This document shows, piece after piece, positions 8,691 to 47,271 of a DNA stretch of 64,000 nucleotides. Below the pieces are notes generated by a model. It worked only from the letters and a program-made list of their open reading frames with translations, was not told where the DNA came from and ran no database searches. This DNA comes from a virus. The stretch covers positions 64,001-128,000 of IMG/VR virus record IMGVR_UViG_3300047444_000299, one strand, 5' to 3'. The translations under genes were made by a program, and so were the position numbers. Position 1 is the first letter of the stretch. The number at the start of each line of letters is the position of its first letter.

Positions 8691-9167
8691 ATGATGCAAT
8701 ACAAAACTGTTAAGGGCAACCTGTTTGATTATCTCAAACCGGGTGATGCAATGGTGCATGGTTGTAACAATCAAGGTGTAATGGGATCTGGTATCGCACT
8801 TGAGGTTAAAGAACGATTCCCCGGTGCCTATAGCACCTATCGAAACAAATACGACCTACACGGCCTAGAGCTGGGTGAAATCATACCATATTTTGATCGA
8901 TCCGGTAAAATCATCATCAACGCGGTGACCCAGAATTTCTATGGCAAAGACGGTAAACGGTATGTCAAATATGATGCTGTAGCCGATTGCTGTTACCACA
9001 TCCGCGAAGGCTTCAAAGTCATGCTAGAACCACCAAAAACCCTGTACTTCCCATTGATTGGGGCCGGGTTAGGTGGTGGTAACTGGAATGTCATATCCGA
9101 AATCATCAAATCAGAATTTGATGGTATGACCGGTACGGAATTGGTTTTGGTTCTGAAAGATGCTTGA
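8691..9167 (+). CDS. Macro-domain (ADP-ribose-binding) protein
   Basis: 158 aa, a complete single macro domain. It has the early GNLFDYL, VHGCNNQGVMGSGIALEVKERFP (ribose-binding loop about residues 23-45), NAVTQ and the late IGAGLGGGNW loop, characteristic of the Poa1/ALC1-like branch that binds ADP-ribose, hydrolyses ADP-ribose-1''-phosphate or removes ADP-ribosyl groups. In a phage this could reverse host ADP-ribosylation or remove an NAD-derived signal (inference). Two ATGs in tandem (8691, 8694) follow AAGGA. It overlaps the next gene by 8 nt. Confidence 0.9.
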   Translation: MMQYKTVKGNLFDYLKPGDAMVHGCNNQGVMGSGIALEVKERFPGAYSTYRNKYDLHGLELGEIIPYFDRSGKIIINAVTQNFYGKDGKRYVKYDAVADCCYHIREGFKVMLEPPKTLYFPLIGAGLGGGNWNVISEIIKSEFDGMTGTELVLVLKDA

Positions 9168-34378: not shown

Positions 34379-34840
34379 ATGAAGAAATCCATTTGGAAGC
34401 CGTGGGAAGACGGTCAGACGCATATCAACGTTTATAGTAAGGGTAAGACCGATCTAGGCCAATGGCTGTCCAATTTCGCTTATAGCCCGTTTAAACATCC
34501 TAAGTATGGATCATTTGATTCAATCGAAGGGTTTTGGTACTGGCTGTCTACCGGAATGCAATACGACAAGCTCCGAACCCTGCATGGTTATCTAGCCAAG
34601 GCTCAGGGTAAGAAATACGCGATCATCGAACACCCGAACTTTGAACAATGCATCAAAACTGCTATTCGTGCAAAGCTGATAGCCAACCCAGATCGTTTAA
34701 GACAGATTATCGACAATCCATTACCCCTGACGCATTACTATGTGTACGGCGACAAGGCTATGCACGCCGGGTATGAATGGATAACAGATTACTATCAAGA
34801 AATACGGCGAGCGTGTATCGCCAAGAACTACAGACCATAA
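34379..34840 (+). CDS. NADAR/YbiA-like protein
   Basis: 153 aa. Carries the pattern of the NADAR (DUF1768) fold: LSNFAYSPF, SIEGFWYWLSTG in the place of the SxExxYQ motif, LHGYLAKAQGKKY, then AIRAKLIANPDRLRQII and THYYVYGDKAMHAGYEW. NADAR proteins act on ADP-ribose-linked substrates and some reverse guanine ADP-ribosylation of DNA. Sequence is divergent, so the assignment is moderate. Three genes downstream of Pth2 in the same run. Confidence 0.6.
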   Translation: MKKSIWKPWEDGQTHINVYSKGKTDLGQWLSNFAYSPFKHPKYGSFDSIEGFWYWLSTGMQYDKLRTLHGYLAKAQGKKYAIIEHPNFEQCIKTAIRAKLIANPDRLRQIIDNPLPLTHYYVYGDKAMHAGYEWITDYYQEIRRACIAKNYRP

Positions 34841-41258: not shown

Positions 41259-41438
41259 TTATTGCGAAAAGACTTCTGAGTTGCGATAAATCTTGCGGTA
41301 CAAAGACCACGCCGCGCTCATTAGAAACGCCTGATATTGTTCACCGTGCGTATCCATGAATGCCTGTTTATTTGAAGCAACCCATTGGTCCATGCCGGGT
41401 GGGCATTGAGCCTCGACATATTCCAGAAACGTTTCCAT
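41259..41438 (-). CDS. uvsW.1: UvsW.1-like small protein
   Basis: 59 aa. ATG 41438 overlaps the uvsW stop (TGATG). METFLEYVEAQCPPGMDQWVASNKQAF and YATAW-like helical pattern match the small gene after uvsW in T4-type phages. Function poorly known. Confidence 0.65.
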   Translation of the reverse strand: METFLEYVEAQCPPGMDQWVASNKQAFMDTHGEQYQAFLMSAAWSLYRKIYRNSEVFSQ

Positions 41439-42910
41439 CAAACTTTAACCTCTTTGATATGTAGTTCATGTTCCTCGGCATCATAGAACTTCAATCGTTC
41501 TTCCCCGTGACCGTAGGCATAGTTTTTACGGGATTTCCAACACAGATCATCCACCAAGTCAAACATTCTGGCTTTGGCTTTCGATACATGTTTCCGCAGC
41601 AGTCTTCCCAGACTCTGTAGGGAAATGATCTTACTCTTTGTCGGATGGGCAAAAATCGCGTTGTGGAGGTTATTTATGCTGACACCTGTGCTGAAAACTC
41701 CATATGATGCAATTACGACCGATCCCACCTCATTCTCTAGATTCTTCTTGGCTTCGGTGCGATGATCCTTTGCAGTACCACCAAAGATCAAATAGACCTT
41801 CCGTCCAGTCCCTTCTAATTTCTTGACAATCTGTTTGTACAACTCTTTACCATGTTCTACCCGATTGAATAGAACAATGGTGTTTTCATCTTTGAAATGG
41901 CAGGCCAAATTGGTAATGAACTTGTTCCGGCCTTCATGTTTGATAATGAAATCAATTTCTTCTGGGTAGGTTGACTTCTTAACCGCGTTCCGATCTGCAT
42001 CTGAATATTTCAGAATAAATCCATTCACCGAAATAGCCGATGCCGAACCTTCATCGATCATTTGTCGGGTTGTGATCGGGGCGAATACTTCACCGAACAA
42101 ACCAGTCAATTGCATGATATGGCATTTGGTATCTTTCAGAGTACCGGTTAGCCCAAGCTTGTATTCCGCATTGGTCAACTTTTCGTTGATGGTTTGCAGA
42201 GATTGGCCGGTTGCAAGGTGGACTTCATCGTTCAACAGCATTGTGAACTGTTGCATCCATTCAGCGGATTGCTTTGCAGCAGTTTGCCATGTGGTGATAA
42301 CGATCTTTCTTTGCGGACCTTTCTTGGTTTTTGGATCTAGAACTTGGATTTCATCCTGAGTAAACAGACCGTAATCAATCAAATCATCATTCATCTGAGT
42401 TCGCAGAACATCAGTTGGCACTAGAATCAATACCCGGCCTTCATTCTCATATTCCCAGCGGGTCAATAGAGCAATGATTAAGGACTTACCAGCGGATGTT
42501 GGAAGCTTCAACAGGTTACGTTGGTTATTCAAGGCGTGTAGGATCGAATCGTACTGATACCAGTGTGGTTTGATCAAATTGCCTTTCGCGTAAATCTTTT
42601 TAGTTGCCAACCAGTCATCGAAATCCTGTTTCTGGATTTTCTGAGGGATCAGAGACGGGTCACATTTAACCGAATAGGATTCTTGTTTGCAGTATTTCAG
42701 CAGTTCAATGAATAACCCTTTTGGCAGCAACTGGGTATTGATGTTGTACAACCGAATGTACCCATCCCATACGCCGTAACGAACCTTTGGCGAGAACTGG
42801 GAGCCTTCAACATGGAATTTGAACCTATCGGCTAAATCATATCTCACGGATGGGTCACCGGAGACATGGATAAAGGAGTGGTTGTATTCCTTAATAATCA
42901 CATCGGTCAT
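41438..42910 (-). CDS. uvsW: UvsW-like SF2 helicase
   Basis: 490 aa (T4 UvsW about 503). Small N-terminal double-stranded-RNA-like domain (1-85), then motif I LPTSAGKS, Ia ILVPTDVL, II LLNDEVHLA (D-E-V-H), III GLTGTL, VI QSLGRLLRKH. It unwinds R-loops and branched DNA and switches origin to recombination replication late. A late-type promoter lies upstream. Confidence 0.92.
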   Translation of the reverse strand: MTDVIIKEYNHSFIHVSGDPSVRYDLADRFKFHVEGSQFSPKVRYGVWDGYIRLYNINTQLLPKGLFIELLKYCKQESYSVKCDPSLIPQKIQKQDFDDWLATKKIYAKGNLIKPHWYQYDSILHALNNQRNLLKLPTSAGKSLIIALLTRWEYENEGRVLILVPTDVLRTQMNDDLIDYGLFTQDEIQVLDPKTKKGPQRKIVITTWQTAAKQSAEWMQQFTMLLNDEVHLATGQSLQTINEKLTNAEYKLGLTGTLKDTKCHIMQLTGLFGEVFAPITTRQMIDEGSASAISVNGFILKYSDADRNAVKKSTYPEEIDFIIKHEGRNKFITNLACHFKDENTIVLFNRVEHGKELYKQIVKKLEGTGRKVYLIFGGTAKDHRTEAKKNLENEVGSVVIASYGVFSTGVSINNLHNAIFAHPTKSKIISLQSLGRLLRKHVSKAKARMFDLVDDLCWKSRKNYAYGHGEERLKFYDAEEHELHIKEVKV

Positions 42911-42918
42911 TTTTGGGC

Positions 42919-42954
42919 ACTAAATATGGTTGTTAATATCCTTTATTTAGTGGA
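42919..42954. promoter_or_regulatory. Divergent late-type promoters in an inverted repeat
   Basis: CACTAAATA on the plus strand near 42919 and its inverse TATTTAGTG near 42945-42954. Each matches the late box at CTAAATA, giving back-to-back promoters for uvsW (minus) and the decoration-like gene at 42962 (plus). Confidence 0.55.
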
Positions 42955-42961
42955 GTGAAGA

Positions 42962-43480
42962 ATGACTGAACAAGTCAAAGGCAAACGCGGCCCGAAGCCG
43001 AAAGAAAAGCCTACCCAAGAACCTGTTTCCAAAGCCCCTGTAAGCCCTTCTGTTGACCCTATCGGGGAAGACCTAGGCGATGTATCCAATACAACCCTTA
43101 AACCGGCTGCAATCGAATCAGACGAGCTTGTAGACACATTCAGTACCAAACTACCGGTTGGTAGTAACCTTGATGTGGCGTTAGCAGCGGTTCTTGCCGA
43201 AGTTGATTCGGAAGTAACAGCAGCAGTGCTTGCACAATACGCAACCCAAGCAGATTTTAAACCAACCCTACGGCCATCCAGTGTAGGTGGTGAACCGAAA
43301 GGCCCAATGCCTGTACCAAAAGGTATCTTTGATCTGGTGACTAAAGATCCAGAATGGAAAGATAAGATCGATTCCCATACGGCTAAACATGGCCTGAAAT
43401 CGGTTGCACATTGGCAGGATGTAAACGGCCACGTCAAAGTACGCTGTATGTCTAGTTCTAAATTTGGAGAAGTTTTGTAA
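42962..43480 (+). CDS. Decoration-related protein with shared SSSKF domain
   Basis: 172 aa. Residues 1-40 are a Lys/Pro-rich disordered tail. The last 55 residues (VPKGIFDLVTKDPEWKDKI, then SVAHWQDVNGHVKVR, then SSSKF) are clearly related to the N-terminal domain of the Ig-like capsid decoration protein at 45062-45637. This suggests a common capsid- or partner-binding module. Possible late promoter upstream. Exact role unknown. Confidence 0.65.
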   Translation: MTEQVKGKRGPKPKEKPTQEPVSKAPVSPSVDPIGEDLGDVSNTTLKPAAIESDELVDTFSTKLPVGSNLDVALAAVLAEVDSEVTAAVLAQYATQADFKPTLRPSSVGGEPKGPMPVPKGIFDLVTKDPEWKDKIDSHTAKHGLKSVAHWQDVNGHVKVRCMSSSKFGEVL

Positions 43481-43746
43481 TGAATTTTGGTGAAGCATTA
43501 TCGGCATTGAAAGCCGGTGCTAGAGTCTGCCGTGCAGGCTGGAATGGTAAAGGCATGTTCCTGTATCTTGTATCAGGATCGAGATTTACCGTAAGTCGTG
43601 CGCCGTTGCTGGGATTGTTCCCGGAAGGCACAGAGATTGATTACTGCCCACACATTGATATGCGTACAGCCGATGGCAAATGCGCCGTGTGGACCGCAGC
43701 ACAAACCGATATCCTTGCCGATGATTGGCAATTAGTGAATATCTAA
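43480..43746 (+). CDS. Tad2-like (DUF2829) anti-Thoeris protein
   Basis: 88 aa. Matches the DUF2829 pattern over its whole length: MNFGEALSALKAGARVCRAGWNGKGMFLYLV, PHIDMRTADGKCAVW.AAQTDILADDWQLV. DUF2829 includes Tad2, which sequesters Thoeris cyclic ADP-ribose signals. TAATG overlap with the upstream gene. The family call is strong; Thoeris inhibition by this member is inferred. Confidence 0.82.
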   Translation: MNFGEALSALKAGARVCRAGWNGKGMFLYLVSGSRFTVSRAPLLGLFPEGTEIDYCPHIDMRTADGKCAVWTAAQTDILADDWQLVNI

Positions 43747-43748
43747 AA

Positions 43749-43778
43749 AGAAAGGGAGCCATTGGCTCCCTTTTTTTA
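43749..43778. terminator. Bidirectional terminator
   Basis: GGGAGCC-ATT-GGCTCCC flanked by A and T runs, between convergent genes. Confidence 0.85.
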
Positions 43779-45061: not shown

Positions 45062-45637
45062 TTACGCAGTTGCTGTGAACGTCAGGGTATGGCTCAGTCC
45101 AGTGGACACGCCATTGTGTGTTGCAGTAACTGTGATAGTACGCACACCGATTGTGGTGAATGCGTGGGATTTGGTACGAGTTTCCGCACCACCGATTTGA
45201 TCAACAATCGAGCTATCGCCCCAGTCAATGGTGTAACCATTAACCAGACCCGGAGTACCACTTGCGGTGATAGTCAGAGCGGCGGTAGACGGTGCTTTAC
45301 CAGTTGCGATGTCCAACGAAATAGCGAAGGTCAGCGGGGTTGCAACGGTCAGGGTATCACCGGAAATGTGTGGCTTACCGTAAACGATAGTAGCACATTG
45401 GGTGATATCTTGAATTGCTGCGAATTTCGAACTTGATTGCGATCTAACCACACAAGATCCGTTGGTATCCATCCAGTATTTGATGGAATTCAGATAGGTT
45501 TGGCGGGAAGCTGGTTTGTAAGTGCCGATGGTACTAGTCCATCCAGCGTTGGTCGTAACGTACTTGAAAATATCATGGGGAACAAGGATTGCCCCAAGAT
45601 GATCAGCACGACCCGGTTTTAGGTTTGGAACGGTCAT
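45062..45637 (-). CDS. Ig/PKD-like head decoration protein
   Basis: 191 aa. Start at the ATG 45637 preceded by GGAG. Residues about 15-70 form a domain shared with the protein at 42962 (VPHDIFKYVT, SIKYWMDTNGSCVVR, SSSKF). Residues about 90-191 are an Ig/PKD-like repeat (GYTIDWGDSS, HAFTTIGVRTITVTAT). Location after gene 23 and its own late promoter fit an outer-capsid (Hoc-like) role. Confidence 0.7.
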   Translation of the reverse strand: MTVPNLKPGRADHLGAILVPHDIFKYVTTNAGWTSTIGTYKPASRQTYLNSIKYWMDTNGSCVVRSQSSSKFAAIQDITQCATIVYGKPHISGDTLTVATPLTFAISLDIATGKAPSTAALTITASGTPGLVNGYTIDWGDSSIVDQIGGAETRTKSHAFTTIGVRTITVTATHNGVSTGLSHTLTFTATA

Positions 45638-45676
45638 TATATTCTCCAATGATATTTTAGGTACAATACCTTTTAT

Positions 45677-45762: not shown

Positions 45763-47271
45763 TTACAGACCTTTAACAACTACACGGCGGAAGTATGGGT
45801 TCTTACCGATTGTACGCAGAGGCGAACCGTCGATGATTTGTGCTTCTTGCGGCAGAGCAAACGGGTTAACCGACATGGCATAACGAGTTTTCAGAGCCAT
45901 TACAGGTTGCATGTTCGCTGGGTTCTGTCCACGCAGGGTAGTCAGAGGAACATACGGGCTGTAGTACACACCAGCATCCATTTCAGTTTGGCCTTTGTAT
46001 CCAACTACGAAGTAGTCGAATTGGGCGTACTGGTCGATGAACACTTTGAAACGACCACCTAGAACACCAGCGAATACGCTGTTGTTGGTATCAGTGTTGT
46101 AACCGCTTTGTAGACCTTGCGCACCCAGACTAACCAGAGCGTCGGACATTGCCAGAGCAGAAACTACGTTACGGGAAGCGATAATGAAGTTACCGTTACC
46201 ACGTCCAGTCTGACGACCGATTTCGTTTGCTTCTTTTTCGATTTGGATCAACAGCGCTTTGTACGCTTCACCAGCCCAACGAGCGTTTTTAACGTCGTTA
46301 GCATCGGCTAGGTCGAATACACCAGCGGTAGTTGTACCAGCGGTCATACCAGCAGCACCAGTTTGGGCTTGGGTTAGAACGGTGTTAACTGTTTCGCGGT
46401 TGATTTCAACCAGAATTTCTTGTGCCAGAATACCGTACAGCTCGCTATCAGCATCCAGACCGTGAACAGCGCGCAAGTCTTGTGCAAGTTCAATAGAGTA
46501 TTGAGCTTTCAGTTGACGAGATTTTGCAGTTACAGTTTGTTTGTCGATACGGAACGACATTTCAGCGTATGGGTTACCCGAAGTACCGTTGAAGTTTTCC
46601 ATTGTTTCAGCGATGGAAGTCAACAGACCCGATCCAACTGGAACCAGTTGATTCGATTGAACCAGTGCAGCAAAGTCAGCGGCAGCATCAGTTGCAACAG
46701 TGTGGGAACCAACACCAACGTACTGCATGTATTCGCTCGAAGTGTTAGCCCCGGTGAATTTGATGAAGTCGTTTGGTGCAACAGTAGCAGCAGCAACGAA
46801 TGCTACAGCGTTAGGGATTTGCAGAGCGCCGATTGAAGAACCGTCGCCTAGGCTACCCGACCAGCCAGTTTGTGGTGCTTGACCCGGACGGAACGCTTCG
46901 GTGAAACCAGTTTGACGTGGGTTCGAACCGTATACGGAACGCAGGTAGAAAACTTGTCCAGATGGTTGAGCCAGTGGTTGTACACCAACGATGTCAAACG
47001 CCATCAGTTGTGGCATAACACGGCGAACCAGACCCATAACTACAGGAGCTGTACCAACGATACCACCAGTAGTTGTACCACCGGCTACACCAGCGGCACC
47101 GCCAGTATAATCACCCTGTACTTGGGCTTCGGTCAGATGACCAGTTTCGCGTAGGTCGCGCTCTTGGTTCTCAAGGACTGTTGCAATGATTTCCGATTTT
47201 TTAGCGGTTGCAATTGCAGGCAGTTCTTTGTCTTCCAGAAGGGCTTGCCACTTTTCAGTAAGAGCAGTCAT
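45763..47271 (-). CDS. 23: Major capsid protein
   Basis: 502 aa (T4 gp23 521 aa). HK97-type fold expected. N-terminal scaffold-binding arm ends in HLTEAQ; cleavage by the gp21 protease after Glu48 (LTE/A) is predicted, leaving about 454 residues. C-terminal LPQEAQIIDGSPLRTIGKNPYFRRVVVKGL is typical. Needs the gp31-like cochaperonin. Own late promoter upstream. Confidence 0.93.
   Translation of the reverse strand: MTALTEKWQALLEDKELPAIATAKKSEIIATVLENQERDLRETGHLTEAQVQGDYTGGAAGVAGGTTTGGIVGTAPVVMGLVRRVMPQLMAFDIVGVQPLAQPSGQVFYLRSVYGSNPRQTGFTEAFRPGQAPQTGWSGSLGDGSSIGALQIPNAVAFVAAATVAPNDFIKFTGANTSSEYMQYVGVGSHTVATDAAADFAALVQSNQLVPVGSGLLTSIAETMENFNGTSGNPYAEMSFRIDKQTVTAKSRQLKAQYSIELAQDLRAVHGLDADSELYGILAQEILVEINRETVNTVLTQAQTGAAGMTAGTTTAGVFDLADANDVKNARWAGEAYKALLIQIEKEANEIGRQTGRGNGNFIIASRNVVSALAMSDALVSLGAQGLQSGYNTDTNNSVFAGVLGGRFKVFIDQYAQFDYFVVGYKGQTEMDAGVYYSPYVPLTTLRGQNPANMQPVMALKTRYAMSVNPFALPQEAQIIDGSPLRTIGKNPYFRRVVVKGL

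Follow-up and report, generated by a model that had tools for sequence, protein, structure and literature searches.

What does a short reading frame, lying between a head-assembly gene and a hairpin terminator, do for the phage that carries it, and could its product disarm a bacterial defence? The stretch of DNA analysed here (the window, 64,000 nucleotides) comprises bases 64001-128000 of a 183,070-bp record of a T4-like phage, and T4-like markers occur elsewhere in it (gp32, gp59, RNase H, UvsY, endonuclease VII and DNA ligase). The reading frame, tad2, runs from an ATG start to a TAA stop and encodes 88 residues (MNFGEALSALKAGARVCRAGWNGKGMFLYLVSGSRFTVSRAPLLGLFPEGTEIDYCPHIDMRTADGKCAVWTAAQTDILADDWQLVNI). 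It is listed with the other features discussed in Table 1.

Table 1. Positions in the window of tad2, its neighbours and other features discussed in the text.
Feature	Position	Strand	Basis or remark
Macro-domain protein, DarG-like	8691-9167	+	28 bits against a cut-off of 22
phrog_652 protein, possible NADAR/YbiA fold	34379-34840	+	Low-confidence fold; probably the NADAR-like protein of the first-pass annotation
uvsW helicase gene, divergent neighbour	41438..42910	-	PF21241 UvsW_N, 60.7 bits; marks the conserved locus
Probable T4-type late promoter core for inh-tad2	42918..42926	+	CACTAAATA; TAAATA conservation suggests promoter function
Probable divergent late promoter facing uvsW	42944..42952	-	Mirror-image CACTAAATA core; putative function
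inh-like gene, first of the operon	42962..43480	+	phrog_1051 'minor head protein inhibitor of protease' (prohead-protease inhibitor)
tad2, 88-residue stand-alone Tad2-like (PF11195) protein	43480..43746	+	Pfam, phmmer, AlphaFold2, Foldseek, alignment
Hairpin closing the inh-tad2 operon	43751..43776	+	GGGAGCC-ATT-GGCTCCC, then a T run; can act on both strands
gp23	45763-47271		In the window

The family of the protein is clear. The Pfam profile PF11195 ('Thoeris anti-defense 2-like domain', formerly DUF2829) matched residues 1-86 over its entire length (1-73 of 73; E = 8e-26; 90.8 bits against a cut-off of 25 bits), and this was the sole PF11195 match in the whole 183,070-bp record; NCBIfam and PADLOC gave no match to the tad2 product. 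A phmmer search of PDB retrieved the solved Tad2 proteins, with ModTad2 first (best E = 8e-21). The AlphaFold2 model, a monomer built on a 67-sequence alignment, had a mean pLDDT of 94.5, and all 24 of its Foldseek matches in PDB at E <= 0.001 were Tad2/AcrIIA7 structures. The top match was 9eib, ModTad2 of Myroides odoratus with hisADPR (E 2.5e-9, TM 0.77/0.79), followed by SptTad2 with cGG, apo ModTad2, HgmTad2/AcrIIA7 and SPO1 Tad2. The first-pass annotation had proposed that the whole 88-residue protein follows DUF2829/Tad2, and the full-length profile match and the confident Tad2 fold bear this out.

The core of the family is also retained. The motif GWNGKGMF occupies residues 20-27, and R18, W21, N22, K24, F27, W71, D77, D82 and W83, which are universal in Tad2, are all kept; only S74 is changed. 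Serine stands at this position in 214 of the 217 aligned sequences, including the related loci L006, L008 and L009, while the window protein and the Tad2 of locus L089 have alanine. Position 74 falls in the loop before helix alpha-3, which is described as lying at the pocket (review PMC12043709), so the replacement of a near-universal serine may alter affinity. Two further residues, H58 and D60, are invariant across the 67-sequence alignment and absent from all three reference Tad2 proteins; they lie on strand 58-62, perhaps not lining the pocket, and we do not claim them as proof of a new one.

Comparison with related phages shows that tad2 is under purifying selection, with dN/dS of 0.04-0.16 between the window copy and its relatives and 0.04-0.21 over all pairs of five copies. 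These values, together with the same position of the gene in related phages, indicate that the reading frame is not a chance one. Judged from its sequence, it is a real and conserved Tad2-family protein, a new member of a family already known.

The gene is the second of a two-gene operon, bounded by a conserved late-promoter core upstream and a hairpin terminator downstream, and its ATG overlaps the TAA stop of inh by one base (TAATG). In the spacer between uvsW and inh, TAAATA points toward inh and its mirror TATTTA toward uvsW, and neither varies among six phages, Astolliot being one of them. The complete T4 late-promoter octamer TATAAATA is present at this spacer in L006 and L009, and in the window it also lies upstream of gp23 and of the next two genes (gp22- and gp21-like by position). 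The window's own copy before inh is degenerate (CTAAATA), and this 7-mer by itself is not enriched (11 found against 6.5 expected). Enrichment was consequently rejected as an argument for the promoter, the case for which comes from conservation and from TATAAATA in the relatives. A scan for sigma-70 promoters returned one site, on the minus strand and below the shuffled mean. Terminators were scarcely more numerous in their scan than chance predicts (2 found against 1.2 expected), and the terminator call thus rests on conservation in the relatives. It is probable, given the conserved promoter, that tad2 is transcribed late.

Searches for relatives of inh with the single sequence found a near-identical contig only, while an alignment search found seven loci. 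The inh-tad2 pair, the one-base overlap and the hairpin terminator recur in L006, L008 and L009, with the divergent uvsW on one side and the head genes on the other; the Tad2 proteins of these loci are 85%, 82% and 83% identical to that of the window, respectively. In L089 (Tad2 98% identical), the pair and the overlap are present and the sequence read runs into a matching hairpin. The Pseudomonas phages Astolliot and Milchi, with UvsW 74% identical, have inh at the same place, followed directly by a stop and the hairpin GGGAGCC..GGCTCCC-T, and no Tad2 was found anywhere in either genome. Compared with this empty site, tad2 occupies precisely the interval from the inh stop to the terminator. 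The simplest reading is that tad2 was gained in the lineage of the window; the alternative is that it was lost in the sister lineage of Astolliot and Milchi.

The locus also seems to have been reshuffled. The region L089:2872-3674 is a mosaic, with a tad2 gene 97.7% identical to that of the window and an inh gene nearer to that of L009 (71%) than to that of the window (50%), which probably reflects exchange at the inh/tad2 junction. In two of the loci the interval from uvsW to inh holds an additional gene, absent from the window: a GIY-YIG (I-TevI-like) homing endonuclease gene in L089 (2199-2831, minus strand), and in L008 (3881-4465, minus strand) an open reading frame with a sub-threshold AP2 domain, as found in phage HNH endonucleases. 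The two differ from each other. Homing-endonuclease-like genes at this site could drive the exchange of inh and tad2.

How might the protein act? Known Tad2 proteins are tetrameric sponges with pockets that take up signal molecules (review PMC12043709), and for the window protein this mechanism is well supported by homology. It most likely forms a homotetramer, and the pockets between protomers would tightly bind an ADP-ribose-derived alarm molecule made by the bacterial TIR protein of a Thoeris system; with this molecule sequestered, the Thoeris effector would never be turned on. Being translated as the second gene of the inh-tad2 operon, under a probable T4-type late promoter, Tad2 would accumulate alongside the capsid proteins that some Thoeris systems sense. 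This explanation as a whole, namely a Tad2 sponge with an ADP-ribose-type ligand, directed against Thoeris and produced from a late operon with inh, we regard as probable, with good but not strong confidence.

The identity of the ligand is a finer question, as the family binds a range of signals: gcADPR in the case of SPO1 Tad2, gcADPR and cyclic dinucleotides in that of HgmTad2, and His-ADPR in that of ModTad2. In the literature, MoTad2 is reported to bind His-ADPR, the signal of type II Thoeris, and SPO1 Tad2 to bind gcADPR, that of type I (PMC13299392), while in some Tad2 proteins an insertion between strands 2 and 5 also provides a site for cyclic dinucleotides (review PMC12043709). For the window protein, His-ADPR would be about as likely a ligand as gcADPR.

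That the protein, like ModTad2, binds His-ADPR, the signal of type II (macro-domain) Thoeris, is a serious possibility, somewhat short of an even chance. ModTad2, from a Myroides odoratus prophage (PDB 9eib with hisADPR, 8v3e apo), is a full-length homologue of the same fold and length class, likewise without the long insertion, and its hisADPR-bound form is the top PDB match by both sequence and fold. Moreover, type II Thoeris ThsA occurs in Pseudomonas (PMC11204291), the host genus of the nearest named phages. Against this, ModTad2 has V75 and S76 where the window protein has Q and T, differs from it at residues 58 and 60, and sits in a separate clade of the tree. Binding of gcADPR, the type I signal, by a protein of the SPO1 type is plausible without being probable. 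SPO1 Tad2 (Gp34.65; PDB 8sme, 8smf and 8smg) matches the window protein over its full length (E = 3e-16), belongs to the same short length class and retains Q75-T76-D77; Q75 and T76 are also common to Spt. However, ModTad2 is nearer by E-value and Foldseek rank and slightly nearer by identity in Foldseek alignments (45% for 9eib and 42% for 8v3e, against 40-44% for SPO1 Tad2), and H58 and D60, around the strand at 55-60, are unlike the residues of all three references. SPO1 itself is a different phage, and its Tad2 diverges over residues 33-60.

The family tree (217 sequences, 88 columns, three reference Tad2 proteins) has few supported deep forks. The window protein groups with those of L006, L008 and L009 (support 99), and this clade is nested in a group of 132 rows (support 91) from which all three references are absent. 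ModTad2 lies in another clade, of 22 rows, and the deep forks have support below 95. SPO1 Tad2 falls in a sister group of 40 rows, again with weak deep support; this SPO1/Spt group is the nearer sister of the window's group (SH-aLRT 88, not starred), which is a point in favour of gcADPR. With 88 columns and so few supported deep forks, reading the ligand from the tree was rejected. Pairwise similarity thus points to ModTad2, whereas Q75-T76 and the weakly supported tree point to the SPO1/Spt side, and the two lines conflict. The first-pass annotation had specified a sponge for cyclic ADP-ribose signals; its family placement holds, but the ligand was named too narrowly, since the closest solved relative is a His-ADPR binder and the tree pairs the window protein with no reference.

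A cyclic-dinucleotide (CBASS) or dual sponge in the manner of HgmTad2 or SptTad2 is very unlikely. HgmTad2/AcrIIA7 and SptTad2 (PDB 8kbi-8kbm, 8wjd and 9kzr) belong to the same family, share its core motifs and are among the solved relatives of the window protein. In the alignment, however, the long insertion between strands 2 and 5 that forms the dinucleotide site (PMC12043709) is present in Spt and absent from the window protein; HgmTad2 carries it as well. Nor is 3'3'-cGAMP bound by SPO1 Tad2, another short member (PMC11722364). Cyclic dinucleotides were rejected as likely ligands because this insertion is missing.

The setting of the gene among head genes raises the thought that the Tad2 fold has been reused for a structural task or for head assembly linked to Inh, for instance as a protein packaged in the head. 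The tight coupling of tad2 to inh and the frequent position of its subfamily beside portal and capsid genes would fit such a role, but the ligand-site core is retained, the related phages Astolliot and Milchi manage without tad2, and Tad2 also occurs at unrelated positions, as beside asiA in KVP40; this reading is likewise very unlikely. The Tad2-like DUF2829 protein of KVP40 (KVP40.0296), also a T4-like phage, is 45.8% identical to that of the window. Its gene adjoins asiA, unlike tad2 at the inh-uvsW locus, and this different place suggests that it was probably acquired separately, so that T4-like phages probably took up Tad2 more than once. Elsewhere in the window, upstream of gp23, a Hoc-like PKD protein (45062-45649, minus strand) has an N-terminal domain that corresponds to the C-terminal domain of the Inh-like protein, and both match phrog_1051; the common domain suggests a shared capsid-binding module.

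The neighbours of the tad2 subfamily were counted by family (106 proteins from 36 loci; these unrelated proteins were aligned for family counting only, and the alignment has no meaning as such). The commonest families were portal (7, 4 and 3 members), terminase large subunit, head-tail adaptor, major head protein and GroES co-chaperonin. These raw counts suggest that the subfamily may be enriched beside head genes. GroES-like genes recur next to Tad2; in one environmental phage (L010:1712-6184) the Tad2 gene has a probable portal gene on one side and a gene for a GroES-like co-chaperonin (Cpn10) on the other. In seven of 82 loci (L011, L014, L019, L037, L038, L044 and L074), the Tad2 domain is fused behind an N-terminal GYxVxY...SWxP module.

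Two further proteins had been brought into the argument by the first-pass annotation, which counted a macro-domain protein and a NADAR-like protein with Tad2 as three probable ADP-ribose/NAD-signal proteins and saw in them strong pressure from such defences. The macro-domain protein is nearest to DarG (PADLOC 4.7e-18; NCBIfam 58 bits, below the cut-off) and also matches phrog_335 'phosphatase'. Its relatives were found in 2052 phage records, among them those of Astolliot and Milchi, both without tad2, and are common in T4-like phages. Reversal of ADP-ribosylation, or processing of ADP-ribose-phosphate, is a likelier activity for it than the sequestering of a signal, and it is a candidate reverser of DarT-type DNA ADP-ribosylation. 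The NADAR profile PF08719 had no match in the whole virus record. The model of the phrog_652 protein has a pLDDT of only 63.9, and its top two Foldseek matches, the only plausible ones, are YbiA (E 0.024) and an oomycete NADAR (E 0.11). Since the macro-domain protein is DarG-like and common, the NADAR assignment comes from a low-confidence fold, and neither is a known signal sponge, the count of three signal proteins is not supported, nor is the strong pressure: the two together do not amount to evidence of Thoeris pressure.

What appears new in the window is the placement of tad2 behind a head-assembly gene in an operon that is probably late. Staphylococcal and streptococcal Thoeris are activated by the major capsid protein (PMC12578639), and macro-domain Thoeris occurs in Pseudomonas (PMC11204291, PMC12360287). 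Because the major capsid protein triggers some Thoeris systems, a sponge made late would be a sensible design. A more speculative proposal, which we consider rather unlikely but worth stating, is that this Tad2 subfamily constitutes a capsid-timed counter-defence, transcribed late within the head-assembly module and building up with the capsid protein that triggers Thoeris, and that, having near-invariant residues of its own (H58 and D60), it may also bind a TIR-derived signal new to Tad2.

In summary, the window protein belongs to an abundant environmental Tad2 subfamily with no solved reference in the tree. The inh-tad2 operon and the empty site in the sister phages illustrate how a counter-defence gene can slot into a conserved late operon, and they raise the idea that some phages may make the sponge at the same time as the capsid trigger and not early in infection.
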